Assembly: GCF_018398335.1 (NCBI RefSeq)
Contig: NZ_JAHBRX010000002.1
Span: 1,612,001 to 1,676,000, forward strand
Direction: 5' to 3'
Origin: Chelatococcus sp. HY11
GTDB taxonomy: Bacteria > Pseudomonadota > Alphaproteobacteria > Rhizobiales > Beijerinckiaceae
Length of the DNA: 64,000 nucleotides
Part shown: piece after piece, positions 12,088 to 53,146 of the stretch
Position numbering within the stretch: the first letter of the stretch is position 1
Layout: every line of letters begins with the position of its first letter
Program-made: the position numbers and the translations under genes
Notes under the pieces: model-generated
The model's input: only the letters and a program-made list of their open reading frames with translations
The model's database searches: none
Told to the model about the DNA's origin: nothing

Positions 12088-13023
12088 ATGAATGAAATCA
12101 CCTCCGCTACTCGCCCTACGCGCGTGGTCTGTGTCGGCACCACGACAATGGACTTCATCTTCGCGCTCGACAATTTTCCGGTCGGGCCGTTGAAATTCCG
12201 CGCCAAGAGCTTCCACGCCGTCGGCGGCGGCAATGCCGGCACGGCGGCGGTGGCGATCCAGCGCCTCGGAGGCGAGGCGCATCTGATGGCGCGGGTCGGT
12301 GACGACCCGATCGGACGACAGGCGCTCGACGAACTGAGGGCGCGCGGAATCAACACCGCGTTGATGATGGTGCATCCGGGGGCGAAGACGACCTTGGCCT
12401 GCATCATGATCGACGGATTGGGCGAGCGACAGATCGTCAGTTACACCGATCCAGACCTGCCGTCGACGGTCGCGGATGTAGACCTTCCCGAAGGCACCGA
12501 CGCTCTTCTCGCCGACGCCCGTTGGGCGGAGGGGGCGCTCCACATGATGCGCCAGGCGCGCAAGGCCGGAATCCCGATCGTCCTCGATGGGGACATTCCT
12601 GTTATCCCGGACGCCTTGCTCGTGCTGTCGAGCATCGCCGCTTTCTCACGGCAGGCGCTCGCGGAGAACACCGGGAGCCCGGACGTGGAAGAGGGCTTGA
12701 GGCGGCTCGCCAAGCGTACCCCCGGCGTTCCGGTGGTGACGGATGGCGCCAATGGGCTCTACTGGCTTGACCAAGGCCTCCTACGGCACATGCCGGCCTT
12801 CAAGGTGGAGGCGCGCGACACGCTTGGCGCCGGCGACGTCTTCCATGGTGCGCTGGCCCTGGCGATCGGCCGCGGCGACAATGTGGAGCAGGCCTTGCGC
12901 TTCGGCTCCGCCGCGGCCGCTGTCAAGGTGACGCGCTTTGGCGGACGTGAGGGCTGCCCCAAAGCGGGCGAGGTCGAGCGCTTGCTTGCGGAGCAGCCTG
13001 GAACTCACGCGGACGTCAGCTGA
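12088..13023 (+). CDS. PfkB-family carbohydrate kinase (ribokinase-like)
   Basis: This 311-residue protein carries the PfkB signature 1 region (VGGGNAGTAAVAIQRLGG, about residues 46-65) and signature 2 (DTLGAGDVFHGALA, about 247-260) with the catalytic Asp in GAGD. These enzymes phosphorylate a sugar or nucleoside with ATP. It follows the cupin gene and its 3' end overlaps the convergent D-cysteine desulfhydrase gene by eight bases. Substrate is not predictable here; sulfofructose, ribose and similar kinases share the fold. Confidence 0.9.
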   Translation: MNEITSATRPTRVVCVGTTTMDFIFALDNFPVGPLKFRAKSFHAVGGGNAGTAAVAIQRLGGEAHLMARVGDDPIGRQALDELRARGINTALMMVHPGAKTTLACIMIDGLGERQIVSYTDPDLPSTVADVDLPEGTDALLADARWAEGALHMMRQARKAGIPIVLDGDIPVIPDALLVLSSIAAFSRQALAENTGSPDVEEGLRRLAKRTPGVPVVTDGANGLYWLDQGLLRHMPAFKVEARDTLGAGDVFHGALALAIGRGDNVEQALRFGSAAAAVKVTRFGGREGCPKAGEVERLLAEQPGTHADVS

Positions 13024-14020
13024 CGCGGTCCTGTGTCAACAGTTCCGCATGGGGGAAGAGGGCGGGCGACCCGCCGCAATGGACGAACAAGACTTTGCTG
13101 CCCTTGGCGATCGAGCCCCGCGCCACGCAGTCGAGAAGGCCGGCGACGGCCTTGCCGGTATAGACCGGGTCGAGCAGCATACCCTCGGCGCGGGCGGCCT
13201 TGGTGATCGCGGCGTTGCCCTCCGGGCTGGGGATCGCGTAGCCCGCGCCCACATAGCCGTTCTCGATGCGGATATCGGCCGGCTCGAAGCGCTTGTCGAA
13301 GTCGAGCAATTCGGCGCCGGCATTGGCCATCACGGCAATGCGCTCCGAGAAGGGGACGGCGCTGCCGCTGACGGCGATGCCGGCGACCTTGGTGTCCGGC
13401 CAGAAGAGCGCGCACCCGATCAGAAGGCCGGCGAGCGTGCCGCCCGAGCCGACGGGCGCGACGATGAGATCGGGCGCGGTCTCCCCAGCGGCCGCATATT
13501 GCGCCGCGAGTTCTTTTACCGCCGCGACATAGCCCATCGCGCCGAGCGCGCTCGCCCCCCCGAGGGGAATGATATAGGGCTTCTCGCCACGGGCTGTGGC
13601 CTGATCCGCGTGATACTGCATGCGCGGATTGATCTCGGTGAAATAAGCGTCCGGATCGAGGAAGTCGATCTCTGCCCCGAAGAGATGATCGAGCAACAGG
13701 TTGCCCTGCAACACCGCCGGACTGTTGCCGCGCAGCACGAGGATAGGTTTCATCCCGAATTTGCGCGCGGCAGCGGCTGTCATCCGCGCGTGGTTGGACT
13801 GGTGCCCACCCGTCGTGATCAGGACCTTCACATTCTGGGCGACCGCATCGGCCATTAGAAACTCGAGCTTCCGGACCTTGTTGCCGCCACCGCCGAAGCC
13901 CGTGAAGTCATCGCGCTTTACCGAGAGGTCGATGCCGTATTCGGCGCTGAGTCGCGGGAGCTTTTCTATCGGCGTCGGGAGAAAGCCGAGGGAGAGACGC
14001 GGAATGTCTTCGAGTTTCAT
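13016..14020 (-). CDS. D-cysteine desulfhydrase / ACC deaminase-family PLP enzyme
   Basis: This 334-residue protein belongs to the PLP fold-type II group of 1-aminocyclopropane-1-carboxylate deaminases and D-cysteine desulfhydrases. GFGGGGNKVRKLEFL (about residues 42-56) carries the PLP lysine, and TTGGHQSNHARMTA (about 69-82) follows. D-cysteine desulfhydrase gives pyruvate, sulfide and ammonia. The family boundary between the two activities depends on a few active-site residues I cannot score reliably. The mercaptopyruvate-type sulfurtransferase in the same apparent regulon favours a sulfur substrate. A perfect 15-bp dyad lies 56-70 bases before the start. Confidence 0.88.
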   Translation of the reverse strand: MKLEDIPRLSLGFLPTPIEKLPRLSAEYGIDLSVKRDDFTGFGGGGNKVRKLEFLMADAVAQNVKVLITTGGHQSNHARMTAAAARKFGMKPILVLRGNSPAVLQGNLLLDHLFGAEIDFLDPDAYFTEINPRMQYHADQATARGEKPYIIPLGGASALGAMGYVAAVKELAAQYAAAGETAPDLIVAPVGSGGTLAGLLIGCALFWPDTKVAGIAVSGSAVPFSERIAVMANAGAELLDFDKRFEPADIRIENGYVGAGYAIPSPEGNAAITKAARAEGMLLDPVYTGKAVAGLLDCVARGSIAKGSKVLFVHCGGSPALFPHAELLTQDRVS

Positions 14021-14075
14021 GGAACGTCCTCGGGAGCGCGCGGCATATAGACCCGCGTCAAGAAGATTGAAAGAG

Positions 14076-14090
14076 GATATATCATATATC
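14076..14090. promoter_or_regulatory. GntR operator candidate, copy 1
   Basis: GATATATCATATATC is a perfect dyad, with GATATAT and ATATATC around a central C. It lies just before the D-cysteine desulfhydrase homologue. The same dyad recurs at 19826-19840 beside the GntR gene and, with two changes, at 22316-22330. Confidence 0.75.
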
Positions 14091-14151
14091 TATCCTGTCA
14101 AAGACAGGGCGGCCTTCGGAGTTATGCAGTGTCCTTTGGTTGGAGATGTCC

Positions 14152-15138
14152 CTAGAGATACGGCAGGGCGGTTCCGATGCCGCGCGCTTCCGCCTGATCC
14201 AGCACGCGGGCAGCGAGCGCGATGTCGAACAGGTTGAGGCCGAAGCTGGAGAAATAGAGCGAGGCCCCGGCCGGCGGTCGCCAGCCGTTCACCACCAAGC
14301 TGGTGAGATCTGCCGCAACCTGGTCCGGCTTGAACTGGCCGGCACGGTACATCTGGAAGAGGCTTTTCGCGCTCCTTGCGGCGAAGTCCCCCCATAGGTC
14401 GACCACGACCACGTCACTGGCGGCGATCGCGGCGAAGGACACCTCGTGATAGCCGACCTGCACGACCAGCCGACCGGGTCGCACCGCATCGTCATCGAGG
14501 ATTGGTTGCGGCGCGGTCGTGCAGCTCAGGATGACGTCGGCATCCGCGATGGCATCGGTCTTTTCCGCGCATCGGACAAGCGCCACACCGGCGGGAGAGG
14601 GCGTGTCCGCAAGAAGCGCATCCAGCTTGTCCGCGCTTCTGTTCCAGAGCCGGATTTCGTTGACGGACGGAAACAGTGCCAGCACCATGGCGAGGTGAGC
14701 CTTCGCCTGGGCGCCCGCACCGAGAATGGCGATGCGGCTGGGTGGTCTCGGCAGAAGGCTTTCAATGGCGAGAGCGGAAACGGCGGCTGTCCGCATCCGC
14801 GTCAGCAGCGCGCTTTCGACCAGCCCGAGCGGACGGCCGTCGCTCAGGCGATTGATGAAGGTGGTGTTGGTGATGCTGGGCAGGTCGCCCCGGCTTTCCG
14901 GTAGATGCACGGCCCATTTGAGGCCCGCCGCATCATAACGGCCGCCGACGAAGGCCGGCAGGCCGTAGGCGTTGGCGCGAGGATCGCCGCCCATCGGCAT
15001 GACGCTCTCAGCCTCCATGCCGGCCTCTCCCGCCCGCAGCAGGCGGGTGGCTTCGCGAACGTCGGCGAGCGCCGACGGCCAGTCATCGCCGCCGGCGGCG
15101 ATGACATCGGCGCGGGAGAGATAGCGCAACGTGATCAT
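14152..15138 (-). CDS. Ornithine cyclodeaminase / mu-crystallin-family protein
   Basis: This 328-residue NAD(P)-binding protein has the OCD layout: an N-terminal dimerisation part, the substrate-entry motif GGRYDAAGLKWAV (about residues 65-77), and the Rossmann motif ILGAGAQAKAHLAM (about 139-152). OCD-family members include ornithine cyclodeaminase, alanine dehydrogenase, ketimine reductase and lysine cyclodeaminase. Its start overlaps the stop of the M20 gene by ATGA, so it is the last gene of the importer operon. Given the sulfur-related neighbours, ketimine reduction or an amino acid dehydrogenase role is possible, but this is inference. Confidence 0.9.
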   Translation of the reverse strand: MITLRYLSRADVIAAGGDDWPSALADVREATRLLRAGEAGMEAESVMPMGGDPRANAYGLPAFVGGRYDAAGLKWAVHLPESRGDLPSITNTTFINRLSDGRPLGLVESALLTRMRTAAVSALAIESLLPRPPSRIAILGAGAQAKAHLAMVLALFPSVNEIRLWNRSADKLDALLADTPSPAGVALVRCAEKTDAIADADVILSCTTAPQPILDDDAVRPGRLVVQVGYHEVSFAAIAASDVVVVDLWGDFAARSAKSLFQMYRAGQFKPDQVAADLTSLVVNGWRPPAGASLYFSSFGLNLFDIALAARVLDQAEARGIGTALPYL

Positions 15139-16502
15139 GAGCTCGCCCCCGGCGCGGGCACCTTTGCCACTTCGGTCAGCCAGATCGCGATGGATTTGAG
15201 GAAACGCTCGAAGCCTTCCAGCGTCATGAATTCATCGATGCCATGGGCATTGCCGCCGCGCCCCGCGCCCCCGATGAGAAACGAATCCGCGTGGCGTGCA
15301 AAGGCATAGCCGGGCGCCGCGCCGATCGCCCAGGGCCAGATTTGTGGCGGTGTTGACGTCGCGGCATAGGCGGCGAGCAGGGCGCCGACGCCCGCCGCGT
15401 CCCGGGTGAAACGCGTGCCGGGATAGGCATCTGCGACATCGAAGGAGACACCATCGAGGCCCGCTGTCTGCAACGTCTCGCGGAAGCCCGCGAGATACTC
15501 GGCGGGGTCGAGGGAGGGCGGACACCGCAGGTCGAACGTCGCGCGCGCGGCATGCGGGATGATCGCATCACCGGCGAGCGGCTCCGTCGCGAGTGAATTG
15601 ATAGTGGCTGAAGCGGTCGTCAGCACGCGTGTCAGCAGGGCGTCCGCATCGCCTTCCAACGCGAAGCGGTCCGTCTTGCGGAAGCTGAGCTCCGCCTGTG
15701 GATCGAAGCTTGCCGCGAGGTCGGCGACGATGGCGCGTGCTTCCGCGTCGAGCGTGATCCTGCCGAGTCCGCCGGTCGGCGATCGGCCGAACAGGGCAAG
15801 GGCCGCGATGAGACGGCTTGCCGGGTTGGCGATCCACGGCGCATTGCTGGAGTGGATGGCCGCGCGCGGCCCACCCCACGCGCCTCCCTCCACGCTGACC
15901 TCGCCCTTGGCGATGCCGGAAAAACCGAGATAAACGCGTGGCGGTCCCCCACCATATTCGCAGAAGGACGGGAACAGGCCGCCGATGCTGGCGCGGAGCG
16001 GGCAGGCGGGGTCGAGGAGATAGGCGCGCAGCGCGCCGCTGCCGCTTTCCTCCTCGCCCTCCACGAGGATCTCGACATTGACGGCCAAGGCGCCGCTCTC
16101 GGCCATCTGTTTCAGGACAGCCAGCATGCCCGCCAGCGGGCCCTTGTTGTTCTCCGCGCCGCGCCCCACGAAACAGGCGCCGATCTCAGGCAGATCGACG
16201 ATGCCACCGCTGAAGGGGGCAACGGACCAGCCGGCGGGATCGGCGGGCATCACGTCATACATATTGTAGAGGATGACCGTATGGGCCGCGCCGACGTCGA
16301 GTCGCGCGTGGATAATCGCTGGCCGGCCGTCCCGGCGACTGTCATTGATGATCGTGGCGCCGAGCTCGCGGCTGAGCCAGTGGCTGACGGCCGCCGCCTG
16401 GCTGTCAAGCGCCTGATCGTTACCCCTCACGGATGGAATGCGGCACCACGCCTCGGCAAGGTCGAGGGCGTCCTGGGCAAGAGGGGAGAGCGGCTGGGTC
16501 AC
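15135..16502 (-). CDS. M20-family peptidase/deacylase homologue with substituted metal ligands
   Basis: This 455-residue protein has the M20 two-domain form. The GTG at 16502 was chosen because it overlaps the permease stop (GTGA); the open frame continues to 17096 but only inside the permease gene. LYNMYDVMPADP (residues 78-89) aligns with the usual LYNHYDVQP, so the first zinc His is Met81. GRGAENNKG (113-121) has Asn118 where a bridging Asp is expected. EGEEESGS (148-155), with the catalytic Glu pair, and a late AHGIDEF with His are kept. Family members cleave peptides or N-acyl amino acids. Whether this one is active, or uses another metal arrangement, is unclear. Confidence 0.88.
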   Translation of the reverse strand: MTQPLSPLAQDALDLAEAWCRIPSVRGNDQALDSQAAAVSHWLSRELGATIINDSRRDGRPAIIHARLDVGAAHTVILYNMYDVMPADPAGWSVAPFSGGIVDLPEIGACFVGRGAENNKGPLAGMLAVLKQMAESGALAVNVEILVEGEEESGSGALRAYLLDPACPLRASIGGLFPSFCEYGGGPPRVYLGFSGIAKGEVSVEGGAWGGPRAAIHSSNAPWIANPASRLIAALALFGRSPTGGLGRITLDAEARAIVADLAASFDPQAELSFRKTDRFALEGDADALLTRVLTTASATINSLATEPLAGDAIIPHAARATFDLRCPPSLDPAEYLAGFRETLQTAGLDGVSFDVADAYPGTRFTRDAAGVGALLAAYAATSTPPQIWPWAIGAAPGYAFARHADSFLIGGAGRGGNAHGIDEFMTLEGFERFLKSIAIWLTEVAKVPAPGASS

Positions 16503-17419
16503 AGCCTGATCCTCGGGTTGAGCCAGAGATAGGCCAGGTCGACGAGAAAATTCACGACGACAAACACGAAGGCGGCGAACAGGACCACGGCCTGGACCAC
16601 GGGGAAGTCGCGGTTCTGGATGGATTCCACTGCGAGCCGCCCGATGCCCGGCCAGGCGAAGATGATCTCGGTCACGAGCGCGCCGCCAAGCAGTGATGCA
16701 AAGTATATCCCCTGTACGGTGATCACCGGGATCAGCGCGTTGCGCAGGGCATGGTGGACGACGAGGGACCAGCCCTTGACGCCCTTCGCGCGGGCCGTGC
16801 GGATGTACTGCTCGCCCAGCACCTCGATCAGGCTGGCGCGCACCAGACGCGTGATCGCGCTGAGGTAATAGGCGCCGAGCGCGATCGACGGCATGATCAG
16901 CTGCTTGAAGGTGCCGATGCCGCTGCTCGGCAGCCAACGCAGATTGAGCGAGAAGACGATGATCAGAAGGAGGGCCAGCCAGAATACCGGAATGGCCTGG
17001 CCCAGCAGCGATATCACCCGGATCGCGAAATCGATGGGGCTGTCCTTGCGGACGGCGGCAATGGTGCCGAGGACGAAGCCGAGCAGCGAGCTCCACAGGA
17101 GTGCGGCGCAGGCGAGAAGCGCGGTGGCGGGAAGGCGCTCGATGAGAAGGTCGAATGCCGGACGCTGGAAGCGGAGCGAATTGCCGAACTCGCCGGAAAT
17201 TACGCCGCCAAGGAAGCGACCGTATTGAACCCAGATCGGGTCATTGAACCCCATCGCCTGGCGGAAGGCCTCGATCTCGGCGCGTGAGGCATCGGGCGGC
17301 ATCATCAGGGCGGCGGGGTCGCCCGTGAGGAAAAGCGCGAAAAAGACGATGGCCGATACGCCGAGCAGCACGATCACACCCTGTGCGGCGCGATTGGCGA
17401 TGAAGATCAACGCCTTCAC
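16499..17419 (-). CDS. Peptide/nickel-type ABC transporter permease (DppB-like)
   Basis: This 306-residue inner-membrane permease has about six helices. The DppB-type loop before the second helix is visible (GFNDPIWVQYGRFLGGVISGE, then RLPATALL), and the EAA-like region lies in the middle of the protein. The GTG start at 17419 overlaps the preceding permease stop as GTGA, and the C-terminus overlaps the M20 start. In most peptide importers the B gene precedes C; here C comes first. No ATP-binding genes of this system are in the window. Confidence 0.92.
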   Translation of the reverse strand: MKALIFIANRAAQGVIVLLGVSAIVFFALFLTGDPAALMMPPDASRAEIEAFRQAMGFNDPIWVQYGRFLGGVISGEFGNSLRFQRPAFDLLIERLPATALLACAALLWSSLLGFVLGTIAAVRKDSPIDFAIRVISLLGQAIPVFWLALLLIIVFSLNLRWLPSSGIGTFKQLIMPSIALGAYYLSAITRLVRASLIEVLGEQYIRTARAKGVKGWSLVVHHALRNALIPVITVQGIYFASLLGGALVTEIIFAWPGIGRLAVESIQNRDFPVVQAVVLFAAFVFVVVNFLVDLAYLWLNPRIRL

Positions 17420-18261
17420 GCTGTGGCGCCCCTGCGGTCGGCGCGGCGCACCAGCCAATCCCCAAGGAGATTGCAGCCGACGACGAGGCAGCCGATGACA
17501 AGCCCGGGATAGAGCACGAGCCAGTTGGCGAGAAGAATGAAGGACCGGCCTTCGCCGATCAGATTGCCGAGCGTCGGCGTGGGCGGCTGGACGCCAAGGC
17601 CGAGAAAGCCGACTGAGGCCTCCAGGATGACAAGCCGTGGCAGGTCGAGCGTGACGAGGACGATCTGCGAGCCCGCAATGTTCGGCAGAACGTGCCGCAG
17701 GAGCACCGCGAAGTCCGAGAGGCCGATGGCCCGCGACGCGTCGATATATTCGAGATCGCGCACCTCGAGCGTTCTGGCGCGGGCAACCCGCGCGAAGATC
17801 GCCCAGCCGGTGACACCGAGCACCACGATGAGATTGAGCATCGAGGGACCGACCACGGCGACGATAAGGAGGATGAGCAGGATGAAGGGAATGGCGAGCT
17901 GTATGTCGACAGCGCGCATGATCACCGCGTCCAGCCAGCCCCCGTAATAGCCGGCGATCATGCCGAGCAGCGTACCGAGGACCACGGCGATGACGGAGGC
18001 GAAGAGAACGATCCCGAGGGAGATCGCTGTGCCCAGGCCGAGCCGCGCCAGGAGATCGCGGCCGAGCTGGTCCGTGCCGAGGGGGTGCAACTGGCCCCCC
18101 ACGACACTCATTGGCGGCTTGAACGTCGCGGTGATCTGACCACGGATCGGGTCGACCGGCCAGAAAAGCGGCACCAGAACGGCAAGCGCAAGGACCGCGA
18201 CCAGAAGACTGATGGCGAAGACCGCGTCCGCATTCCGACCAGCGTTCCAGAACCGCGTCAT
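17416..18261 (-). CDS. Peptide/nickel-type ABC transporter permease (DppC-like)
   Basis: This 281-residue permease has the DppC N-terminal form, one helix followed by a long periplasmic stretch. That stretch contains HPLGTDQLGRDLLARLGLGTAISL, the family's best-known signature (about residues 60-83). An EAA loop appears near 165-185 (YIDASRAIGLSDFAVLLRHVLPN). It begins three bases after the binding-protein stop and overlaps the DppB-like gene. Together they form the membrane part of an importer for peptides or related amino compounds. Confidence 0.93.
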   Translation of the reverse strand: MTRFWNAGRNADAVFAISLLVAVLALAVLVPLFWPVDPIRGQITATFKPPMSVVGGQLHPLGTDQLGRDLLARLGLGTAISLGIVLFASVIAVVLGTLLGMIAGYYGGWLDAVIMRAVDIQLAIPFILLILLIVAVVGPSMLNLIVVLGVTGWAIFARVARARTLEVRDLEYIDASRAIGLSDFAVLLRHVLPNIAGSQIVLVTLDLPRLVILEASVGFLGLGVQPPTPTLGNLIGEGRSFILLANWLVLYPGLVIGCLVVGCNLLGDWLVRRADRRGATA

Positions 18262-18264
18262 CGT

Positions 18265-19752
18265 TCAGCGCTTGCTCATCTCGAACACCGGGATGCGCGC
18301 ATCAGGCCTTCCCTCGAAATTGAGGGTCTTGGCTTTGCCATAGAGCGAATCCTCCTGATAGAGCGTGATCAGCGGAACCTGTTCGGCGGCAAGCTTCTGG
18401 ATATTGTGCAGAACCGTCTTGCGCGCCTCGGGGTCAACGATCTTGCGGCTTTCGTCGAGGAGCTTGTCGAGCTCCGGGATGGACGCCGTGGAATAGGGCT
18501 CGCCGGTCCGCAGGATGGCATAGACGGCCGCATCAGCATCAAGGGTCTGCGTTGAACCCCAGCCGAGCATGAAGATCGGGCCCTTGCGCGGCACCTGCTG
18601 CACATAGACCGACCAGTCCAGGACCTCCTGATCGATCTTCACGCCGATGTCGCCGAACTGCTGGGCGATGGCCTGGGCGACCTCGCCGTCCTTCATGTAG
18701 CGCAGGGTCGACTGCATCTTGATGCGGAAGCCATCCGGGAAGCCGGCCTCCGCGAGGAGCGCCTTCGCCTTCTTCGGATCATAGGCTGGCGGAGGAATGT
18801 CGAGATAGCCGAAATCGGCAGGGCCGACCTGCGTGCCCTTCGGCGTCGCCATGCCCTTCAGGATATTGTCGACGATGCCCTTGCGGTCGATCGCCATGTC
18901 GAGGGCCTGGCGGACCTTGACGTTGTCGAGCGGCTTGTCCTTCATGACCAGCCCGAGATAGATCGTCAGACCGCCGTTCTTGACCTGCACGAGGTCGGCA
19001 TCGGAGCTCGACGAGATCATTGGCGCGAGATCGACCGGCACACCCTCGATCAGGTCCACTTCCCCGGTGACGAGCGCCGTGATGCGGGCCGTTCCGTCCG
19101 GGATGGCACGCCAGGTCACCTGATCAATCGACGGTTTGCCTCGCCAATAGTTTGGATTGGCCTTCAGGATGACGTGCTGATCGGGAATGAAAGCCGTGAG
19201 CTGATAGGGGCCGGTGCCGACCGGCTTCGACGCGAAGCCGTCATTGCCGACCTGCTTCACATAGCCGGGCGGCACGATATAGGCCGGATAGCGGCTCATG
19301 CGGGTCGGCAGGAGAGGATCTGGTTCGGTGGTCCTGATGCGCACTGTGTAGGGATCGACCACATCCACGCCCGCCACGGTCCTGATGTAGGAGAGGGTCG
19401 GGGATTTGGCGGCGGGGTCTATGATGCGGTCGATCGTGAACTTCACCGCCTCGGCGTTGAAATCCTCGCCGTTGTGGAATTTGACGCCCTGGCGGAGCTT
19501 AAACTCCCATGTGGTGTCGTCGATCGATTTCCAGGACTCCGCAAGCCCGGGCACGAGCTGCATCGCCTTGTCACGCATGACAAGCGTGTCGAAGATGTTG
19601 TCGACGATTGTGGCCGCCTCGCGCAGGAACCCGGGGTCCATCGCGGTGGTCGAAACCGGCCGTGCTATCGTGATCTGGCTGGCTTGGGCCCATGCCGCTG
19701 ATCCCGGCAATAAAATGGCTGCCGCCAAGGCTAACGCTTTCAGTTGTCTCAT
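18265..19752 (-). CDS. ABC transporter solute-binding protein, family 5 (peptide/opine type)
   Basis: This 495-residue periplasmic binding protein begins with a clear signal peptide (MRQLKALALAAAILLPGSAAWA). The ATG at 19752 was chosen because an AAGG-type ribosome site precedes it; the extra upstream residues of the open frame have no function. Family-5 features include AESWKSIDDTTWEFKLRQGVKFHNGEDF and the later SVYVQQVPRKGPIFMLGW-type region. It is the first gene of the operon with DppC, DppB, M20 and OCD. The 15-bp dyad at 19826-19840 is 74-88 bases before its start. The ligand is unknown. Confidence 0.93.
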   Translation of the reverse strand: MRQLKALALAAAILLPGSAAWAQASQITIARPVSTTAMDPGFLREAATIVDNIFDTLVMRDKAMQLVPGLAESWKSIDDTTWEFKLRQGVKFHNGEDFNAEAVKFTIDRIIDPAAKSPTLSYIRTVAGVDVVDPYTVRIRTTEPDPLLPTRMSRYPAYIVPPGYVKQVGNDGFASKPVGTGPYQLTAFIPDQHVILKANPNYWRGKPSIDQVTWRAIPDGTARITALVTGEVDLIEGVPVDLAPMISSSSDADLVQVKNGGLTIYLGLVMKDKPLDNVKVRQALDMAIDRKGIVDNILKGMATPKGTQVGPADFGYLDIPPPAYDPKKAKALLAEAGFPDGFRIKMQSTLRYMKDGEVAQAIAQQFGDIGVKIDQEVLDWSVYVQQVPRKGPIFMLGWGSTQTLDADAAVYAILRTGEPYSTASIPELDKLLDESRKIVDPEARKTVLHNIQKLAAEQVPLITLYQEDSLYGKAKTLNFEGRPDARIPVFEMSKR

Positions 19753-19825
19753 GACGGTGACCTTTTCTCTGGTGGCTGCAGAAAGCTGCGCGACAAAAGG
19801 CAGAAAAGTCTGTGAGTGTCGGAAC

Positions 19826-19840
19826 GATATATGATATATC
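19826..19840. promoter_or_regulatory. GntR operator candidate, copy 2
   Basis: GATATATGATATATC is a perfect 15-bp dyad in the divergent region between the ABC operon and the GntR gene, about 75 bases from each start. It is identical to copy 1 apart from reading the central base on the other strand. Confidence 0.78.
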
Positions 19841-19873
19841 CGGTGTGCACAAGGTGTGAGCGGTGAGGAGGCC

Positions 19874-19918
19874 ATGGTAAAAATTCAGGCAGCCATCCGA
19901 AGCATGAGGGTGTTGTGA
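19874..19918 (+). CDS. Possible 14-residue leader peptide before the GntR gene
   Basis: An ATG at 19874, three bases after GAGGAG, opens a frame of 14 residues ending at TGA 19916-19918. That stop overlaps the GTG start of the GntR gene as GTGA. The arrangement would allow coupled translation and autoregulation. The peptide has no recognisable family and may be chance. Confidence 0.25.
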   Translation: MVKIQAAIRSMRVL

Positions 19919-20601
19919 GCATTGGTTCTTTCAACGCGGCCCCCCGCAAAAGCCTCGTTGGCTATGTCGAGGAAGAACTGCGCAACGCCTTGGTCGAGGG
20001 GCGTCTGGAGCCAGGCACAAGGCTTGTCACCAAGGAACTCGCGGATACCCTCGGGATGAGCATTACCCCGGTGCGCGAGGCGCTGGTGCGCTTCGCCGCG
20101 TCGGGCATCCTGACCGCCGAGCCTGCGCAGTCCTTCCGCGTCCCGGCGCTGAATGCCGCGCAATATCTGGAGCTCTCGGAGGTCCGCAAGGCCGTTGAGG
20201 GGCTCGCGGCGGCAAAAGCGGCACTGCGGATCGCTGCCGCCGACATCACGCGGATGCAGGAGCTGCTCGCTCAGTATCTGGCGGCGAAGTCTGCCGGTGA
20301 TCCTCATTCCGCTCTCATGAGGAACAAGGAATTTCGGTTCGTCCTCTACGGCGCTGCCGAAATGCCGACTTTGCTCAGCGTGATCGAGACCTTGTGGTTG
20401 AGGGCAGGTCCGGGCTTCAACTATCTCTATCCCGAGGAACGCAGGCCTCTTACAATCCATAACAACTACAATGAGTTGCTCGAGGCCTTGCACCGTCGCT
20501 CCGCCGACGCCGCCCGGGTGGCGATCGAACACGCGATCGATGATGGCGCCAAACGTGTGCTCGCGGCGATCAACGCGCGCGAGAGTTCCAGCGCGGCGTG
20601 A
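19915..20601 (+). CDS. GntR-family regulator, FCD subgroup
   Basis: This 228-residue regulator has an N-terminal winged helix-turn-helix (about residues 12-75, with GTRLVTKELADTLGMSITPVREAL) and a helical FCD effector domain (about 85-215). The usual FCD metal-site positions are partly changed: where many members have a His after Asn/Asp-x-x-Phe, this protein reads NKEFRF. The GTG start at 19915 has GAGG upstream. It is divergent from the importer operon and convergent with the VOC gene. The shared dyad in three promoters makes it the likely local regulator. Confidence 0.9.
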   Translation: MSIGSFNAAPRKSLVGYVEEELRNALVEGRLEPGTRLVTKELADTLGMSITPVREALVRFAASGILTAEPAQSFRVPALNAAQYLELSEVRKAVEGLAAAKAALRIAAADITRMQELLAQYLAAKSAGDPHSALMRNKEFRFVLYGAAEMPTLLSVIETLWLRAGPGFNYLYPEERRPLTIHNNYNELLEALHRRSADAARVAIEHAIDDGAKRVLAAINARESSSAA

Positions 20602-20607
20602 TCCGTT

Positions 20608-21372
20608 TCACCGGGGCGCGAAACGGATCGTTGCTCCATGCGTCAAGGCCGGATCGGGCTCTGGCTGGGGTATCGTGGTTGCGATGACTGCCTCGAAGAG
20701 GCCGGGGCTACCCTTGTTGACCGATAAATCTTCAAGCACATCGATCCAGCCGGTGCCAAAGCCGATGCGTGTCGCCGGACGGCCATGAGCCTCGGTTTCT
20801 GACAGCGAGATCGTCTCTCCGAGGATGCCGCGCAGCGTTGCGATCACAGTGGCCACCGAGGAGGTCGCGACCCTGATGCCCGCGATGCCCGCCGCCCCAT
20901 TCCGGTGCCGCGTCGCTGCGGGAATGCGATGCGCGCGGCCGGCGCGATCCTCGACAATGAAAGGCAGGGCGTCATCGCCACCGGCGCCGATGCCGGTCAT
21001 CAAGAGGTCCAGTGACCAACGGTCGCCACTCGCGACGGAGTTGGAAACCTGGACCGGCCCGCGCGTTGGCGCGTGTAGCGACTGAAGGCGGGCTGTAATC
21101 TCCTCAATCCCCTCGACGACGAAAGAATAGTCGGCCCAGCCTTCGCCTCTTTGCAGCAACGGACCGAGGCGGTGCTTATCCGCTGCGGCGGGATCCGCAA
21201 AGGCACTGAGAAGCAGGTATGAGCCGTCCGCGAAGCTTATGAAGCGGTTAAGCATGGATCCGGCGACACCGTCATGCCGCTCGGTGACGGTAAAGCCCAA
21301 GCTTTCAAAATCGCGCGCAGCTTTGTCGAGATCATGGACGAGGACGATGAGATGATCGAAGGAAGCGCGCAC
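20608..21372 (-). CDS. VOC / glyoxalase-like-domain protein
   Basis: This 254-residue protein starts with FDHLIVLVHDLDKAARDFESLGFTV, the typical first VOC beta-alpha unit, and has a second diverged half. It resembles the Glyoxalase_3 group of uncharacterised proteins. It lies 43 bases downstream of the sulfurtransferase gene on the same strand and is probably co-transcribed with it. Possible activities are an isomerase, lyase or dioxygenase acting on a small acid; no further call is justified. Confidence 0.82.
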   Translation of the reverse strand: MRASFDHLIVLVHDLDKAARDFESLGFTVTERHDGVAGSMLNRFISFADGSYLLLSAFADPAAADKHRLGPLLQRGEGWADYSFVVEGIEEITARLQSLHAPTRGPVQVSNSVASGDRWSLDLLMTGIGAGGDDALPFIVEDRAGRAHRIPAATRHRNGAAGIAGIRVATSSVATVIATLRGILGETISLSETEAHGRPATRIGFGTGWIDVLEDLSVNKGSPGLFEAVIATTIPQPEPDPALTHGATIRFAPR

Positions 21373-21415
21373 GGCTGATCCTCGTTCGCTTGTGGAGGTC
21401 GTTAAATCAGGGCGA

Positions 21416-22288
21416 TCAGATCGTGCTGTCGACGTCGTTCGCCGGACCGGTGGCCGCCTTGGGCAGGTCGTCGCGGCGTCCCCACTCGTTCCACGAACCG
21501 TCGTAGATCGTCCAGTCCGTCTTGCCCATGCGCAGCAGCTGGAAGGCGAGCACCGCCGCCGTCACGCCAGACCCGCAGGTCGCGATGATCGGCTGGTCCG
21601 GGTCAATGCCGGCGCTACGGAAGGCCTCGTCAGCTTCTTCGGGCGAGATGAAGCTGAAATCACCCTCCTGCCGCATCATGGCTGTCCAGGGCAGATTGAC
21701 GGCACCGGGCATATGTCCTGGCGCCAGTCCTGGATACCCGGAGGGAAGCGCGCCGGAGAAGCGGTCGGGCATGCGTGCATCGACGACCTGGGCCGTGCCT
21801 TCGCTCAGTGCGATGGCGACATCGACCCAGCCCGCGATATCGGTGACAGGCGGCTTTGCCTCGAAGGTTCGCGCAATGGCCGGACTTGCCTCGCCGCTTT
21901 CGAGGCCTCTGCCTTCCGCCTTCCAGCGGCGCAAACCGCCGTTGAGTATGAAGACATTGTCGTGACCGAAGCGGTGGAACATCCACCACACGCGCGCGGA
22001 AACATAGCCCGCGTCGTAGATCACGACCGTCATGCCGTTGTCGATTCCGAGCGCGCCGACAATGGCTGAAAACTGCGCCGGACCCGGCATCATGTTCGGA
22101 TAGGGCGACGTGCCGTCCGAGGCGGCGTTGAGGTCGAAGTGGCGAGCTGTTGGAATATGCTCCGCGCGGAAAGCGTCGAGGCCGGTCTTGCCGGCCTCCG
22201 GCGCAAACCAAGCGCAATCCAGCACCGCCAGATCATGTGAGCCGAGCTTCGCTTCGAGCCACGAAGGCTCCACGAGAAAGGTTTCCAC
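21416..22288 (-). CDS. sseA: 3-mercaptopyruvate/thiosulfate sulfurtransferase (two rhodanese domains)
   Basis: This 290-residue protein has an inactive N-terminal rhodanese domain (about residues 8-125) and an active C-terminal domain (about 150-280). The active-site loop is CGSGVT with Cys238. That loop is the one known for 3-mercaptopyruvate sulfurtransferases, whereas thiosulfate enzymes carry CRKGVT. It would transfer sulfur from mercaptopyruvate, a cysteine transamination product, to an acceptor. It heads a two-gene unit with the VOC protein, and an AATATATCATACATC dyad variant lies 28-42 bases upstream, linking it to the GntR regulon. Confidence 0.92.
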   Translation of the reverse strand: METFLVEPSWLEAKLGSHDLAVLDCAWFAPEAGKTGLDAFRAEHIPTARHFDLNAASDGTSPYPNMMPGPAQFSAIVGALGIDNGMTVVIYDAGYVSARVWWMFHRFGHDNVFILNGGLRRWKAEGRGLESGEASPAIARTFEAKPPVTDIAGWVDVAIALSEGTAQVVDARMPDRFSGALPSGYPGLAPGHMPGAVNLPWTAMMRQEGDFSFISPEEADEAFRSAGIDPDQPIIATCGSGVTAAVLAFQLLRMGKTDWTIYDGSWNEWGRRDDLPKAATGPANDVDSTI

Positions 22289-22315
22289 GCCACGCCTCTC
22301 AATGTCGGATCGATC

Positions 22316-22330
22316 AATATATCATACATC
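22316..22330. promoter_or_regulatory. GntR operator candidate, copy 3 (two mismatches)
   Basis: AATATATCATACATC matches copy 1 at 13 of 15 positions and keeps the same centre. It lies directly before the sulfurtransferase gene. Imperfect symmetry suggests a weaker site. Confidence 0.6.
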
Positions 22331-22392
22331 GACTCGAGGAAAGGCCATCCGCGTCCGGAGATAAATCGGGAATGCGGGGTGGCTGGCGGCGG

Positions 22393-23406
22393 TCAAGCCG
22401 TGATGTCGTAAAGGGCCTCCCAGCCCTGGGCGCGCGCTCCGTTCTCGATGCTTTCCACGGTCGTCTTGAGGCGCTCGAGATGCGGGACGCCCACACCGGC
22501 TTCTTCCGCGATGCGAATGACCGCCCCCACTTGCCATTCCACCTCTGTCTTGCGGCGATGAATCTTCAGGTCGCGCCAGACGCCGGTGTGGGTATTGTCG
22601 TGGCTCTTCCAATAGACGCGCTGGGCATCCCAGGAAGCGGCCTGAGCCGCGTCATCGGTCGGCCGGTCCAGCCGAAACACCTTCGGGTCGAAGCCGTCGC
22701 AGTTTTCCGTGCGAATGCCGATCGCGTCCGCGACGCTGACCGCCTCGCCCGCCAGAATGGCGAGGACGGCCCGGGCGCGTGGATCATCGTAAATCTCAAG
22801 TACAGGCGCGTCGACAATGGCGGTGCCAAAATAAACCGAGCCCAAGGCCATCTTCGACCAGAGGTAACCGAAGATATTGTCTGTCACATCGATATTTTGC
22901 TGCGAAGACAACGCTTTTTGCAACGCCGTGACGCGTGATGATGTCCCGCGGCCGTCGATTTCCCCGATCTTGAAGCTTCCGGGGCCGCCATAGACGATAT
23001 GGCCTGGTTCCTTGTAGTAGCCGCCAAAGGTGAGATAGGCGCCAATCGTGCGTTCTTTCCCGACGATGGCCGCGATCTTTTCTTCCTCAAGCCCATTCTG
23101 GAGCGACAGAACATAGCCGTCCGCCGCGATCCGATCGGCATAGGGGGACAGGCCGGCGATCGTATCGCGCGACTTCACGGCGAGAAGCACGCGCTCCATC
23201 GGCCCGTCATAGGTCGATGGCGCGTGAATGGCGGGACGGACCAGCGCGTCGAGATGTCCGCTGATCCTGAGGCCATTGCGCCGGATGGCATCCGCATGTG
23301 CCTCGTTGGCCTCGATGAAGACGACCTCGTGTCCGGAGCGGATGAGATGAGCGCCGACAATGCCGCCGATCGCTCCCGCGCCGACAATGACAAAGGGAGA
23401 GGTCAT
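22393..23406 (-). CDS. Ketopantoate reductase-family protein (PanE/ApbA-like)
   Basis: This 337-residue protein begins with a Rossmann motif (FVIVGAGAIGGIVGAHLIRSGHEV). KSRDT with the likely catalytic Lys and LQNGLEEE follow, and a C-terminal helical domain completes the 2-dehydropantoate 2-reductase fold. Its N-terminus overlaps the SDR stop by one base (TGATG). The setting next to an SDR, an M28 protein and an ABC importer argues for a catabolic reductase or dehydrogenase rather than pantothenate synthesis. Substrate is unknown. Confidence 0.88.
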   Translation of the reverse strand: MTSPFVIVGAGAIGGIVGAHLIRSGHEVVFIEANEAHADAIRRNGLRISGHLDALVRPAIHAPSTYDGPMERVLLAVKSRDTIAGLSPYADRIAADGYVLSLQNGLEEEKIAAIVGKERTIGAYLTFGGYYKEPGHIVYGGPGSFKIGEIDGRGTSSRVTALQKALSSQQNIDVTDNIFGYLWSKMALGSVYFGTAIVDAPVLEIYDDPRARAVLAILAGEAVSVADAIGIRTENCDGFDPKVFRLDRPTDDAAQAASWDAQRVYWKSHDNTHTGVWRDLKIHRRKTEVEWQVGAVIRIAEEAGVGVPHLERLKTTVESIENGARAQGWEALYDITA

Positions 23407-24197
23407 CAGCGCATGTTCCTCGAGAGGGGCATATGGGTGCGGCCGCAGTGGGAGCCGCCGGTGACCTTCAGGATAGATCCCGTGGTCCAGGGCGAGGCCT
23501 TGGAGGAGGCGAGGAACACGACGGCCTCGGCGATGTCGTCGGGATGGCCGGTGCGGCCGAGTGGCGTGCCCTTCAACATCAGATCGGCATAGGGATGCAG
23601 GTCCGCCCCGCTGTCCTTCGTCCAGACCTCGTCCATGACGAGACCGGGCGCCACCGCATTGACGCGAATGCCGTGCGGCCCGAATTCAATCGCCATCACC
23701 TCGGTCATCATGCTGACCGCCGCTTTCGAGCCGTTGTATCCCGCCCCACCCGCCCGCGCGGAGGTGGCGGCCCCCGATGACAGGTTGACGATCGAGCCTT
23801 TGACCCCCCGGTCTATCCAGCGCTGGGCTATCGCCTGCACGGGCAGCATTGTCCCGCGGACGTTGATCGCGAAGATGCGATCCCAATCTTCGACCTCGAC
23901 CTCGAGCAGCGGAATATTGGGGAAGATTCCATGCGCGTTGATGAGGACATCCGGCAGGCCGAGCTGCTCCTCCGCATCGTCGATCATACGCAGGACGTCT
24001 TCCTTGGAGGACACATCGCCCGCGACTGCCGCCGTGCGTCCCGAGGACGCGAGCTCTGTCGCGACTGCCTTGGCCGCGGCCATGTTCAGGTCCGCAATGA
24101 CGACCGCCGCGCCCTCCCGCTGGCATGAGCGGGCGATTGCCCGGCCAAGACGGCCGCCGCCGCCCGTGATGAACGCCGTCTGTCCTTCGAGAAGCAT
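23406..24197 (-). CDS. SDR-family NAD(P)-dependent oxidoreductase
   Basis: This 263-residue classical short-chain dehydrogenase has the cofactor motif TGGGGRLGRAIA near residue 11, the NAHG-type stretch near 90, a catalytic Ser in SSGAATS, and YNGSKAA with the catalytic Tyr and Lys near 155-159. It sits 12 bases after the M28 gene in the same operon. The C-terminal half includes GSILKVTGG, a common SDR end motif. It probably oxidises or reduces a hydroxyl or keto product of the imported compound. Confidence 0.92.
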   Translation of the reverse strand: MLLEGQTAFITGGGGRLGRAIARSCQREGAAVVIADLNMAAAKAVATELASSGRTAAVAGDVSSKEDVLRMIDDAEEQLGLPDVLINAHGIFPNIPLLEVEVEDWDRIFAINVRGTMLPVQAIAQRWIDRGVKGSIVNLSSGAATSARAGGAGYNGSKAAVSMMTEVMAIEFGPHGIRVNAVAPGLVMDEVWTKDSGADLHPYADLMLKGTPLGRTGHPDDIAEAVVFLASSKASPWTTGSILKVTGGSHCGRTHMPLSRNMR

Positions 24198-24209
24198 CGC
24201 GATATTGTC

Positions 24210-25970
24210 CTATTGCGCCGTGGCGCCAAGATTTTGAAGGCAGGTTTCGATAGCCTTGATGGCGTCAGCCAGCGCCAGGGCGGTGCGGTTGTGGGCGCGC
24301 ATCATGCCCACATGCAGAAATCTGGCCGCGTCGCTGTCCGGATCGAGCGCTGCGAACTGCCGGATGGGTTGCAGGCCGGGATAGGCCTGCTGCGCGAGGG
24401 CGGGATCCTGGGTGAAGCGATCTTTCTCCGTGTAGTCCACCGGCACGAGCGCGCGTGACACCGCTTTGAGCGCCTCGTTGATGGTTGTGGCGTCTTCATC
24501 GCTCGCCACCTCAGAGACGGCCTTGAGCCGGGTCGCAAGCTGTTCCAGACGGCTGGCGCGAGATTGCAGCAGGCTGAGGTCAAAGCGGGCGCCGGCGGCG
24601 TCCTGCAACTCGCGCAGGGTCGCCGTGAGATAGCGGGCATGTTCGGCATAGTCGAGCGGCAGGATTTGGTCGGTGAGCAGCCGCCAGACGGCGTGCATGT
24701 AGATCTTCGTGTCGCGCACGAGGATCGTCTCGTCGATCTTGTCCAGGGTATCGGCCGGATTGTGCCACCACCACCCCGTGCCGTGGCCCACCCGGTTACC
24801 GCCGCCGAACACCGAGGCGGAGGCATTCGTTTCCGCGTCCGGCGAGGCCGGCTGTTCGCTCATGTTCTGGAAAATTCCAGGCACGCCGATGCCCCAGAAC
24901 GACTGATCGCCCGCCCTGTTTTGCCGTCTGTTGTTGAACGTCTGGCCGCTATAGGCCATGACCGCCTCGGCCGCGAGCGGGCGCAGCTCGGCTGCGCAGC
25001 TCGTGTCGCCGACGATCGTATTGCCCAGGCCGCCCGTCGAGTCCACGTTGACATGGACCAAGGCGCGTCTGTCGATATCCTCCCAATGCGCATCCGAATA
25101 CCAGGATGAACTGGAATATCGCCCTTGCGAATGCCCGGACCAGAAGACGACGCGCAGCCCGCGCCGCCATGCATCGCGATTGAGGGCCGCGATACGGGAG
25201 ACCTCCATCATGGTCGCATTCGCGCCGCCGTTGTCCATCACCCCGTAGTACCAGGTGTCGTGATGCCCCGTGTAGAACACGTAGGGTTGTTCGTGCGGGT
25301 CTGATCCCGTCATCAGGTCCGCCACCAGTATCGGTGTCTTGCGCCATCCGGTGTCGACGTCGGCGTGCAGGGTGACTTCGAGTGAGGCATCATCCTTCAG
25401 TCGCTGGCGCAGTACCTGGCCTTCATCGAAGGGGATCTGGACAATGACTGTCTTTGGCAGGCGATCGACCGTCTCATGGGTTGGGCTGCCCCAGACGGAG
25501 GACACGCACATCTCGTGAAGATGCTCGTGCGGGCTGATATGGATCTGGCCGGCTGCGCCCGCCTGCGATGCGCGTAGCGCCGCCGCGGGATTGGCGATGC
25601 CGTCGATCAGGACAATTTTGCCGACGACGGCCTGACGCGCGAAATCGGCGGCTGTCCCCGCCCCGAGGTCGATGACTTCAGCCGTGAGGCCCCCGGCGGG
25701 GGAGGATCGCGAGAAGGAATGGGTGATCGCGCGCAAAACGCGACCGTCGAGAACGACCTCGCCCTTGAGCGGAATGCTTATATAGGCGTCGTGAAGAATA
25801 ATCTCCGTGGCGAAGCCGTAGGATTTCATCTGCTCTTCACAGTAGCGCAAACTGTCGAGCTCGGTTGGCGTGCCGGCCACCTTCGTATAGCGATCGAAAA
25901 GATGCATGTGTTGCATCATCAAGGGGCCATCGACGGCCGCGATGACGGCTTCCATTGAAGGGGCGCTCAT
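24210..25970 (-). CDS. M28-family peptidase homologue with inserted PA-type domain
   Basis: This 586-residue protein resembles PSMA-like M28 metallopeptidases. An apical PA-type segment (about residues 110-180) precedes the catalytic part. Zinc-ligand motifs are seen as GHHDTW, DNGGAN, HVNVDS and WWHNPADT. The usual Glu-Glu pair is replaced by His280-Ser281 in FWSGHSQGRY. No signal peptide is obvious. It is translated in overlap with the permease gene (ATGA at 25967-25970), so it acts with that importer, perhaps cleaving an amide bond in the substrate; activity is uncertain. Confidence 0.85.
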   Translation of the reverse strand: MSAPSMEAVIAAVDGPLMMQHMHLFDRYTKVAGTPTELDSLRYCEEQMKSYGFATEIILHDAYISIPLKGEVVLDGRVLRAITHSFSRSSPAGGLTAEVIDLGAGTAADFARQAVVGKIVLIDGIANPAAALRASQAGAAGQIHISPHEHLHEMCVSSVWGSPTHETVDRLPKTVIVQIPFDEGQVLRQRLKDDASLEVTLHADVDTGWRKTPILVADLMTGSDPHEQPYVFYTGHHDTWYYGVMDNGGANATMMEVSRIAALNRDAWRRGLRVVFWSGHSQGRYSSSSWYSDAHWEDIDRRALVHVNVDSTGGLGNTIVGDTSCAAELRPLAAEAVMAYSGQTFNNRRQNRAGDQSFWGIGVPGIFQNMSEQPASPDAETNASASVFGGGNRVGHGTGWWWHNPADTLDKIDETILVRDTKIYMHAVWRLLTDQILPLDYAEHARYLTATLRELQDAAGARFDLSLLQSRASRLEQLATRLKAVSEVASDEDATTINEALKAVSRALVPVDYTEKDRFTQDPALAQQAYPGLQPIRQFAALDPDSDAARFLHVGMMRAHNRTALALADAIKAIETCLQNLGATAQ

Positions 25971-26806
25971 GCCGTGGTTTCCTTCCGAGAGCCGCCGACA
26001 TCAAGTGGCAGCTTCTGATTGCGCAGAACAAGGCTGAGCCCGCCGATGATGGCGACCGCGAAGAGGATGAGAACCGTCGACAGCGCGGCGATTGTCGGAT
26101 CCTGCCACTTCTGCAGATAGAGGAACATTTCGACGGGCAGCGTATTGTCGCCCGGCCTGACAAGGAAAAGCGTCGTCTCGACCTGGTCGAATGATGTAAC
26201 GAACGCGAAAACGCCCGCGACTACGACCGAGACCGAGATTTCAGGAAGGATTACGCGAAAGAAGGTCTCTAGCGGACCCGCGCCGAGATCCATCGCCGCT
26301 TCCTGCAGCGTCCAGTCAAAACTGAACAGGGCCGCTGTGATCAGGGATATCACGAAGGGCAGGACAACGAGCATATGGGTGAAGAGGAGGCTCGAATATC
26401 CACCCAGAGTGCCGATGCGCACGAAGAACATGAACAGAGCAACGCCCAGCACGATCTTCGGCATGACGATGGGCGACAGCATGAAGGCCTTCACCACGTT
26501 GGGCATGGGCAGGCGGTAGCGGACGAGCGCATAGCCGGCCATGGTGCCGATGATCAAGGCGCCGATTGTCGCCAGGGAGGCGAGGACAAGGCTGCGCCAG
26601 GCGCCGGCGTAGAACGCGGCCTGGCCCGCGAGGTTCTGATACCAGCGCAGCGAAAAACCCTCTGGCGGGAAAACATTATAGGCGACTGCCGAGAAAGAGT
26701 TGACGACCACGACGAACAGCGGCGCTATGATGAACAGAATGCCGAGAACCGTGAATGTCCAAAGAAAGACATAACGTATTCGAATGCCGGATGCTGCAGC
26801 CTGCAT
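25967..26806 (-). CDS. Polyamine/opine-type ABC transporter permease (PotC-like)
   Basis: This 279-residue permease has six helices and the EAA loop EAAMDLGAGPLETFFRVILPEI (about residues 160-181). The ATG at 26806 lies one base after the preceding permease stop, which decided it over an upstream in-frame start. It pairs with the PotB-like gene, the ATPase and the binding protein of the same operon. Confidence 0.92.
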   Translation of the reverse strand: MQAAASGIRIRYVFLWTFTVLGILFIIAPLFVVVVNSFSAVAYNVFPPEGFSLRWYQNLAGQAAFYAGAWRSLVLASLATIGALIIGTMAGYALVRYRLPMPNVVKAFMLSPIVMPKIVLGVALFMFFVRIGTLGGYSSLLFTHMLVVLPFVISLITAALFSFDWTLQEAAMDLGAGPLETFFRVILPEISVSVVVAGVFAFVTSFDQVETTLFLVRPGDNTLPVEMFLYLQKWQDPTIAALSTVLILFAVAIIGGLSLVLRNQKLPLDVGGSRKETTA

Positions 26807-26807
26807 C

Positions 26808-28782: not shown

Positions 28783-28807
28783 GAGGCATTCCTTGTCGTC
28801 ATTGGTT

Positions 28808-28827
28808 CGGGCGGCCGAAGCCGCCCG
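28808..28827 (-). other. Intercistronic hairpin with UUCG loop
   Basis: On the minus strand CGGGCGGC and GCCGCCCG form an 8-bp perfect stem around TTCG, the very stable tetraloop. It begins eight bases after the binding-protein stop and precedes the ATPase gene; no U tract follows. Such hairpins commonly protect the upstream binding-protein mRNA. Confidence 0.7.
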
Positions 28828-28834
28828 GCAAATC

Positions 28835-29893: not shown

Positions 29894-29934
29894 TCCCCGT
29901 CCCCTCTGTTATGGGTGACTGTGATGTGAGTTCG

Positions 29935-29949
29935 TTACGCTTTGCGTAA
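29935..29949. promoter_or_regulatory. Lrp/AsnC operator candidate
   Basis: TTACGC-TTT-GCGTAA is a perfect 15-bp dyad in the 173-base divergent spacer between the importer operon and the Lrp gene. Lrp-family sites are about 15 bp with this kind of symmetry. Use by the adjacent regulator is inference. Confidence 0.6.
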
Positions 29950-30066
29950 AAAAAGTTGCTTCTTATTGCGGAATGCGAAAATGATATGTCGATTGGCGGC
30001 GGTCGTCAATGTGTTGATGGAGACGATCTGCGCATATAACGTGGGCGGACAGCTGAAATTTTAAGC

Positions 30067-30606: not shown

Positions 30607-30646
30607 CAGTCCACGCGTTTCATCTTCTCCAAGGCAGGGGTCAGCG

Positions 30647-53117: not shown

Positions 53118-53146
53118 AGAGCCCTCCCAACGTCTTAACAATTTTT

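Follow-up and report, generated by a model that had tools for sequence, protein, structure and literature searches.

A conserved dyad and a predicted GntR regulon for import and breakdown of a probably sulfur-containing compound in Chelatococcus and other Proteobacteria

In Escherichia coli, sulfur scavenging involves the cystine importer YecSC-FliY and D-cysteine desulfhydrase, which are up-regulated through CysB on sulfur limitation, according to excerpts of papers that cover this system and the Salmonella enzyme (among PMC3344862, PMC7170509, and PMC11876095). An importer and a D-cysteine desulfhydrase-like enzyme are likewise encoded in the locus described here, which lies in a stretch of 64,000 nucleotides from Chelatococcus sp. 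HY11 (contig NZ_JAHBRX010000002.1, positions 1,612,001 to 1,676,000; the whole stretch is hereafter called the window) and in which a 15-bp dyad, the predicted operator of a GntR-type regulator, recurs before three transcription units. To our knowledge, YecSC-FliY belongs to a different importer class and has no M20 hydrolase, ornithine cyclodeaminase/mu-crystallin (OCD) family, or sulfurtransferase partner. The E. coli glutathione importer GsiABCD shares its subunit families with the importer of the locus and, as in relatives of the locus, has a fused ATPase; it differs in that the proteins of the set stay below its family cut-offs. BhcB/BhcD and EutB/EutC are pairs of a pyridoxal phosphate (PLP) lyase and an OCD-family reductase, with the reductase turning the imine product of the lyase into an amino acid. 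The OCD protein of the locus shows weak similarity to the solved iminosuccinate reductase 6rqa and to the models of BhcD and EutC, but its scores for the two models (66 and 76 bits) are far below the cut-offs (500 and 472 bits), and its reaction here is a prediction.

The regulator belongs to the GntR superfamily and FCD group (PF00392 51.6 bits and PF07729 66.9 bits, both above the cut-offs), and its nearest solved chain by sequence is 4p9f, McbR (YncC) of E. coli, a VanR-type GntR/FCD protein (133 bits). It scores 168 bits against the 225-bit cut-off of the equivalog model NF008504/PRK11414, which we take to be McbR. The sites of McbR seem to include ATATAT, whereas its reported binding of dihydrofolate and its numerous AT-rich sites set it apart from the regulator described here, as far as the consulted parts of PMC13343897 go. 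Another VanR-type GntR protein, Atu1419 of Agrobacterium, is an autorepressor with palindromes over the -10 boxes of catabolic genes; unlike the present case, it has a 10-bp site, ATGTATACAT, and serves another pathway (excerpts of PMC7797058).

A preliminary description of this DNA knew of no described system with this gene combination, and the literature searches agree. Searches that covered few subscription journals gave no description of the set for D-cysteine desulfhydrase with a GntR regulator and a sulfurtransferase, with an OCD protein and an ABC transporter, or with a hydantoinase. Searches that paired the enzyme with CuyA/XcbE or with FliY/CysB likewise returned none among the matches listed, and nothing relevant was found in the literature for the dyad as a published motif, the match being an unrelated adipocyte study.

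The dyad and the gene set in the window

The sequence GATATATNATATATC is perfect at positions 14076-14090 and 19826-19840 and occurs with two changes at 22316-22330, as stated in the preliminary description, which also correctly placed each copy before its own transcription unit. Dyad 1 is found 55 bases upstream of the D-cysteine desulfhydrase-like gene (DCyD), dyad 2 lies inside the 162-base spacer that separates the importer operon from the divergent GntR/FCD gene and is common to both, and dyad 3 is found 27 bases upstream of a sulfurtransferase-VOC gene pair. The features are as follows, with the minus-strand genes reading in the order GsiB-like protein, two permeases, M20 hydrolase, and OCD protein, and then DCyD behind its own dyad.

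13016..14020, minus strand: D-cysteine desulfhydrase/1-aminocyclopropane-1-carboxylate (ACC) deaminase-related PLP enzyme, DCyD (PF00291; TIGR01275); own promoter with dyad
14076..14090, no strand: predicted operator dyad 1, exact; in the spacer and -10 of TTGACA-N16-TATCCT on the minus strand
14152..15138, minus strand: OCD family protein (PF02423; nearest solved chain 4m54)
15135..16502, minus strand: M20-family metallo-hydrolase (PF01546; nearest solved chain 4mmo)
16499..17419, minus strand: GsiC/DppB-type importer permease (PF00528)
17416..18261, minus strand: GsiD/DppC-type importer permease (PF00528)
18265..19752, minus strand: GsiB-like substrate-binding protein (PF00496; best NCBIfam match GsiB)
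19826..19840, no strand: predicted operator dyad 2, exact; between importer operon and GntR gene
19915..20601, plus strand: GntR/FCD regulator, McbR-like (PF00392 and PF07729; nearest solved chain 4p9f McbR)
20608..21372, minus strand: VOC/Glyoxalase_3 protein, downstream of the sulfurtransferase gene (PF13468)
21416..22288, minus strand: 3-mercaptopyruvate-type sulfurtransferase, loop CGSGVTA (PF00581; NF008557 below cut-off)
22316..22330, no strand: predicted operator dyad 3, two changes

The dyad is confirmed and far exceeds chance expectation. Within three mismatches, the window holds five matches, namely, the three dyads, a match overlapping dyad 1, and one within a permease gene (17743), compared with 0.37 (standard deviation 0.58) for 100 shuffled sequences, not one of which had as many as five. 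Apart from dyads 1 and 2, the 6.95-Mb genome holds no exact copy, and it has nine places within two mismatches versus four for a reversed-pattern control. First-order Markov resampling of each spacer gave an equally good match to the purine/pyrimidine (R/Y) form of the dyad in 0, 0, and 1 of 5000 trials. A chance match was thus rejected on the window shuffles, the genome counts, the resampling, and a control on genomes that lack the regulator gene. The position of dyad 3 is occupied by an exact R/Y-form copy in two other Chelatococcus genomes (G055 and G087) and by a one-mismatch copy in a third (G015).

Dyad 1 is enclosed by the sigma-70-like pair TTGACA-N16-TATCCT of the DCyD gene. Upstream of gsiB, a TTG-starting hexamer recurs 5-7 bases before the dyad in the compared spacers, as read by eye and with the exception of Neorhizobium lilium (TTCCCC), which would allow dyad 2 to overlie the -10 region. 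The GntR gene had been called the only regulator in the set, and indeed Pfam finds no other among the ten proteins scanned (13016-23406).

Conservation of the dyad and the gene set

The aligned spacers of related genomes, proposed earlier as a check, show that orthologues retain the dyad nearby. The pattern search took in 18 distinct genomes that carry a GntR homologue (G087 and G298, being a single genome, count once); RATATATNATATATY occurs exactly 25 times in 11 of them, with three copies each in G055, G087, G299, and G304, two each in G000 (the window's genome), G015, G300, G301, G303, and G1053, and one in G942. Upstream of set genes are 24 of the 25 copies, among them a copy in Aureimonas AU4 (L053) that precedes a sulfurtransferase gene not linked to the rest. 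The other seven genomes (G302, G305, G374, G409, G528, G1014, and G1046) contain no exact copy; the importer/GntR spacer carries a site with one mismatch in G305 and G528 and a site with two in G374 and G409. When 19 importer/GntR spacers were gathered by gene position and not by pattern, the R/Y form was present within two mismatches in 16 (12 exact, 4 with mismatches). A dyad also lies before the DCyD gene, or between it and a divergent ATPase gene, in seven genera (Chelatococcus, Aureimonas, Aurantimonas, Neorhizobium, Jiella, Rhizobium, and Paracoccus). Over 21 sites outside Chelatococcus, the arms average 1.72 bits per position versus 0.25 for the flanks, the former being inflated because sites were chosen by pattern and some come from close relatives.

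The dyad goes together with the regulator gene. In a same-family control of 298 genomes, all four carriers of the GntR gene (E <= 1e-40) have exact sites (10 in all), and so do 8 of the 294 non-carriers (11 in all). Some non-carriers have repeated exact R/Y dyads (G027 C23:52972, 62657, and 63599; G272 C49:26457 and C70:44787), perhaps as part of another McbR-like regulon. GntR homologues turned up in 7 of the 397 genomes searched in the order (E <= 1e-40) and in 9 of the 394 searched in the family of G303 (E <= 1e-50), and close DCyD homologues in 3 of 385 in the class (E <= 1e-110); a query genome that was itself among those searched is included in the count. Scanning genome contigs with the GntR protein identified 13 loci. 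Ten are 63-89% identical, and three, at 32-43%, have none of the genes of the set at the thresholds used. A plasmid search with the OCD protein gave six records.

Units that are separate in the window form one run elsewhere, which makes it likely that the genes serve one function. In Pantoea At-9b, P. dispersa, and Ewingella, where the set is plasmid-borne, the GntR gene adjoins a run of substrate-binding protein, two permeases, M20, DCyD, OCD, and rhodanese genes; the dyad between the GntR and substrate-binding protein genes is degraded to one or two mismatches, and P. dispersa and Ewingella have a one-mismatch dyad upstream of the ATPase gene. In G374, G409, and G528, the same enzymes plus the ATPase stand in a single run. 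In Rhizobium WYJ-E13, Paracoccus pantotrophus, and P. versutus, one exact dyad lies in the importer/GntR spacer and a second between the ATPase and DCyD genes. The importer, M20, and OCD genes are present in every stretch that reaches them except L112, which within its 20 kb has ATPase, HyuAB, and DCyD genes and no other importer, M20, or OCD gene. A search of seven genomes (E <= 1e-60) found DCyD in G300 and G304 and not in G302, G1014, G1046, or the distant G309 and G592. The sulfurtransferase is of two kinds, with loop CGSGVTA (as in the window) or CHRGAR, and its gene occurs in most stretches (none in L024, L027, L058, where it is unlinked, L078, L079, L112, and L113). HyuA/HyuB-type genes adjoin the set in 10 of 28 stretches, several of which come from the same genome or are too short for a verdict (L026, L027, L055, L058, L080, L081, L109, L112, L113, and L115), with identity to the L055 pair dropping to 36-41% in L080, L081, and L109. 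Among the stretches compared, a VOC gene orthologue was seen only in those of Chelatococcus.

Comparison of the genomes thus demonstrates, at the level of sequence, the site, its link to the regulator, and a conserved gene set. The single GntR regulon of the preliminary description draws support from the conserved dyad, the unlinked sulfurtransferase gene, and the one-run gene orders.

Other genes also border the set or the dyad. The Opp-type second importer operon of Jiella mangrovi, with an S15-family hydrolase gene at its end, may be an extra regulon member. A BisC/DMSO-reductase-like molybdoenzyme gene lies next to the GntR gene (L023:10693, L025:10690, L027:10693, and L108:2218) or behind the sulfurtransferase gene in Aureimonas (L053:2-2458), a hint that the pathway may involve an S- or N-oxide; family tests were made for L025 and L053 only, and the genes in L023, L027, L077, and L108 were named by eye. 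In L112 (7137-9471; genome G1402), a one-mismatch dyad precedes a TonB-dependent-receptor-like gene directly upstream of DCyD; as a siderophore clue, this gene, seen in one genome, has weak family scores and no solved relative was found for it. In the window, positions 22393-32431 hold an adjoining operon of ketopantoate-reductase-like, SDR, M28 peptidase, and ABC importer genes, the first three kinds being kept in Chelatococcus stretches, followed by an AsnC/Lrp-like gene (by eye) and a gamma-glutamyltranspeptidase gene at 30647. No dyad was found within three mismatches in the window beyond 22330. A HyuA/HyuB pair and a second OCD gene (48287-54367) are paralogous to those of the set and distinct from them; as set members, HyuA/HyuB (48287-52269) and this OCD gene (53396) were rejected at 39, 29, and 29% identity with no dyad near.

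Enzymes, importer, and proposed mechanism

DCyD exceeds the subfamily cut-off of TIGR01275 (304.3 versus 289.4 bits) and stays below the NCBIfam equivalog cut-offs; for the D-cysteate sulfo-lyase CuyA/XcbE, it scores 317 and 324 bits, below the curated cut-off of 450 bits. Gln77, Ser78, Asn79, His80, Tyr287, and Thr288 (Salmonella numbering) are kept in 11 aligned sequences, and a motif search for the Tyr287 region gave no match in one homologue (G1402). The position of Thr315 is Cys in 17 of 18 homologues, with Thr in Paracoccus, so that the specificity of DCyD may differ. According to the excerpts named above, Tyr287 of the Salmonella enzyme abstracts the alpha proton from D-amino acids, and this enzyme also accepts beta-chloro-D-alanine. 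The closest relatives of the OCD protein, all of them weak matches, are SbnB-like 4m54, mu-crystallin, and further OCD-family reductases, and the nearest solved relative of the M20 hydrolase is an archaeal carboxypeptidase (4mmo), with a Cys-Gly dipeptidase as a distant match. 3-Mercaptopyruvate sulfurtransferases have the active-site loop CG[S/T]GVT, and the window's enzyme contains CGSGVTA at 235 bits versus 250 for NF008557.

The importer scores 218 of 594 bits for GsiB, 258 of 463 for GsiC, and 190 of 484 for GsiD, and the fused ATPase of a relative 820 of 1077 for GsiA. The importer, M20, and OCD genes named in the preliminary description are all present, but its operon needs correcting in that the window's importer operon includes no ATPase gene. 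GsiA-like matches inside the window were rejected, since they are only 26-35% identical, and a gsiA-like fused ATPase gene on another contig of the genome (G000 C1:4574187-4576004; L094:8170-10026), 69% identical to the relative's ATPase, was therefore taken as the likely partner. Neither a permease nor a binding-protein gene adjoins it, and matches at 69-70% occur in three other Chelatococcus genomes searched.

Taken together, the locus is probably best explained by an McbR-like GntR protein acting as the local repressor of a three-unit regulon for import and breakdown. From the sites and gene functions we infer binding, repression, a sulfur substrate, and an order of steps. A GntR dimer would bind RATATAT-N-ATATATY, overlapping the core promoters, and would keep the importer operon, the DCyD and sulfurtransferase genes, and the GntR gene itself blocked until a ligand inside the cell frees the DNA. 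The Gsi/Dpp-type ABC importer, with its ATPase encoded elsewhere in Chelatococcus, would then take up a peptide-sized compound, the M20 hydrolase would cut an amide, DCyD would remove sulfur by PLP-dependent beta-elimination, the OCD-family protein would reduce or oxidise an imine, and the sulfur would pass to the sulfurtransferase. If the DCyD-OCD pair acts like BhcB/BhcD and EutB/EutC, both sulfur and nitrogen would be recovered.

That one regulon stands under this GntR protein is very probable. The dyad, a predicted operator built of ATATAT arms, co-occurs with the GntR gene, and the ATATAT in McbR sites independently supports the pairing. Repression is the likely mode of control, since it is usual for an autoregulated, promoter-overlapping site. 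The enzymes suggest sulfur release from a peptide-like or cyclic cysteine derivative; a cysteine-like sulfur substrate is somewhat favoured, a cysteine conjugate as the imported compound is plausible, and the D-configuration is put forward only tentatively. It seems rather doubtful that the locus is a dedicated, partly plasmid-borne pathway for natural products with a D-cysteine-type unit, such as thiazoline/thiazolidine rings or penicillin-derived D-penicillamine, that would be imported intact and opened by M20 and HyuAB-type hydrolases, with DCyD then desulfurising the product and the OCD reductase saving the imine as an amino acid.

Alternative explanations and meaning

Several observations weigh against a single regulon of this kind. 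The 25th exact dyad (L054:7444-7458, Jiella mangrovi) stands upstream of another importer operon, which is not part of the set; one-mismatch sites outside the set occur in G087 (2), G300 (1), G302 (2), G304 (2), and G409 (1), with 0 or 1 per genome for the reversed-pattern control, and the three whose surroundings were compared (L056, L057, and L059) have no set gene adjoining. Conversely, L024, L078, and L079 retain the GntR gene and importer without the dyad, a half-site remaining in L078; the sulfurtransferase gene adjoins the GntR gene with no preceding dyad within two mismatches in Aurantimonas L022, Fulvimarina L021, and the metagenome-assembled genome L019; L113 has the importer, M20, DCyD, HyuAB, and OCD genes and, within the fetched stretch, neither GntR gene nor dyad; and no dyad lies within three mismatches near the gsiA-like gene on C1. 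A promoter scan picks another, weaker pair at dyad 2, with three pairs in total versus 1.8 in shuffles, and no protein of the set reaches an NCBIfam single-function cut-off.

The dyad could be an AT-rich promoter element arising by chance, as -10 boxes look alike in GC-rich genomes and palindromes come easily, and dyad 1 does overlap a -10-like sequence; with two exact copies in 6.95 Mb, a tie to GntR carriers, and the same places kept across orders although the flanks diverge, this is very improbable. Binding by another GntR paralogue has only a slim chance. The window's genome has 45 GntR-related places (E <= 0.001, this gene included), and exact sites exist in some genomes without the orthologue, e.g., G027 (3) and G272 (2), but the orthologue stands beside one site in the genomes compared that have at least two exact set sites, from Chelatococcus to Paracoccus, and G302, G1014, and G1046, which have no importer/GntR-spacer dyad within two mismatches, have lost DCyD, as searched at E <= 1e-60.

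Two further possibilities accept the regulon and concern its substrate. Glutathione or L-cysteine S-conjugates, handled by Gsi-like import, a Cys-Gly-type M20 enzyme, a C-S beta-lyase, and 5-oxoprolinase-like HyuAB, are an unlikely but appreciable candidate: the fused ATPase of a relative scores 820 bits for GsiA, GsiB is the best family match of the binding protein, the M20 matches include DUG1 and cytosolic dipeptidases, a relative's HyuA is near N-methylhydantoinase and 5-oxoprolinase, and the transpeptidase gene lies at 30647. This gene, however, has no dyad within three mismatches, the Gsi cut-offs are not reached, and DCyD keeps the Tyr287 that serves D-amino acids in the Salmonella enzyme, as given in the excerpts. 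A sulfur-free substrate, from which the PLP enzyme would remove another beta-leaving group with the sulfurtransferase in a side role, appears a little less likely still. The acceptance of beta-chloro-D-alanine by the Salmonella enzyme in the same excerpts, the Cys at position 315, and the fetched stretches with no set sulfurtransferase gene (L024, L027, L078, L079, and L113) speak for it, whereas a sulfurtransferase of one of the two kinds occurs in most stretches, once unlinked with its own exact dyad.

With the McbR-like repressor and its three-unit regulon as the preferred explanation, the comparison outlines, in Alpha- as well as Gammaproteobacteria and on plasmids too, a predicted operator with its regulator and nine core genes, together with several partners that recur. 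A repressor that should sense the compound would offer a handle on a probably sulfur-containing nutrient and the route by which it is broken down.

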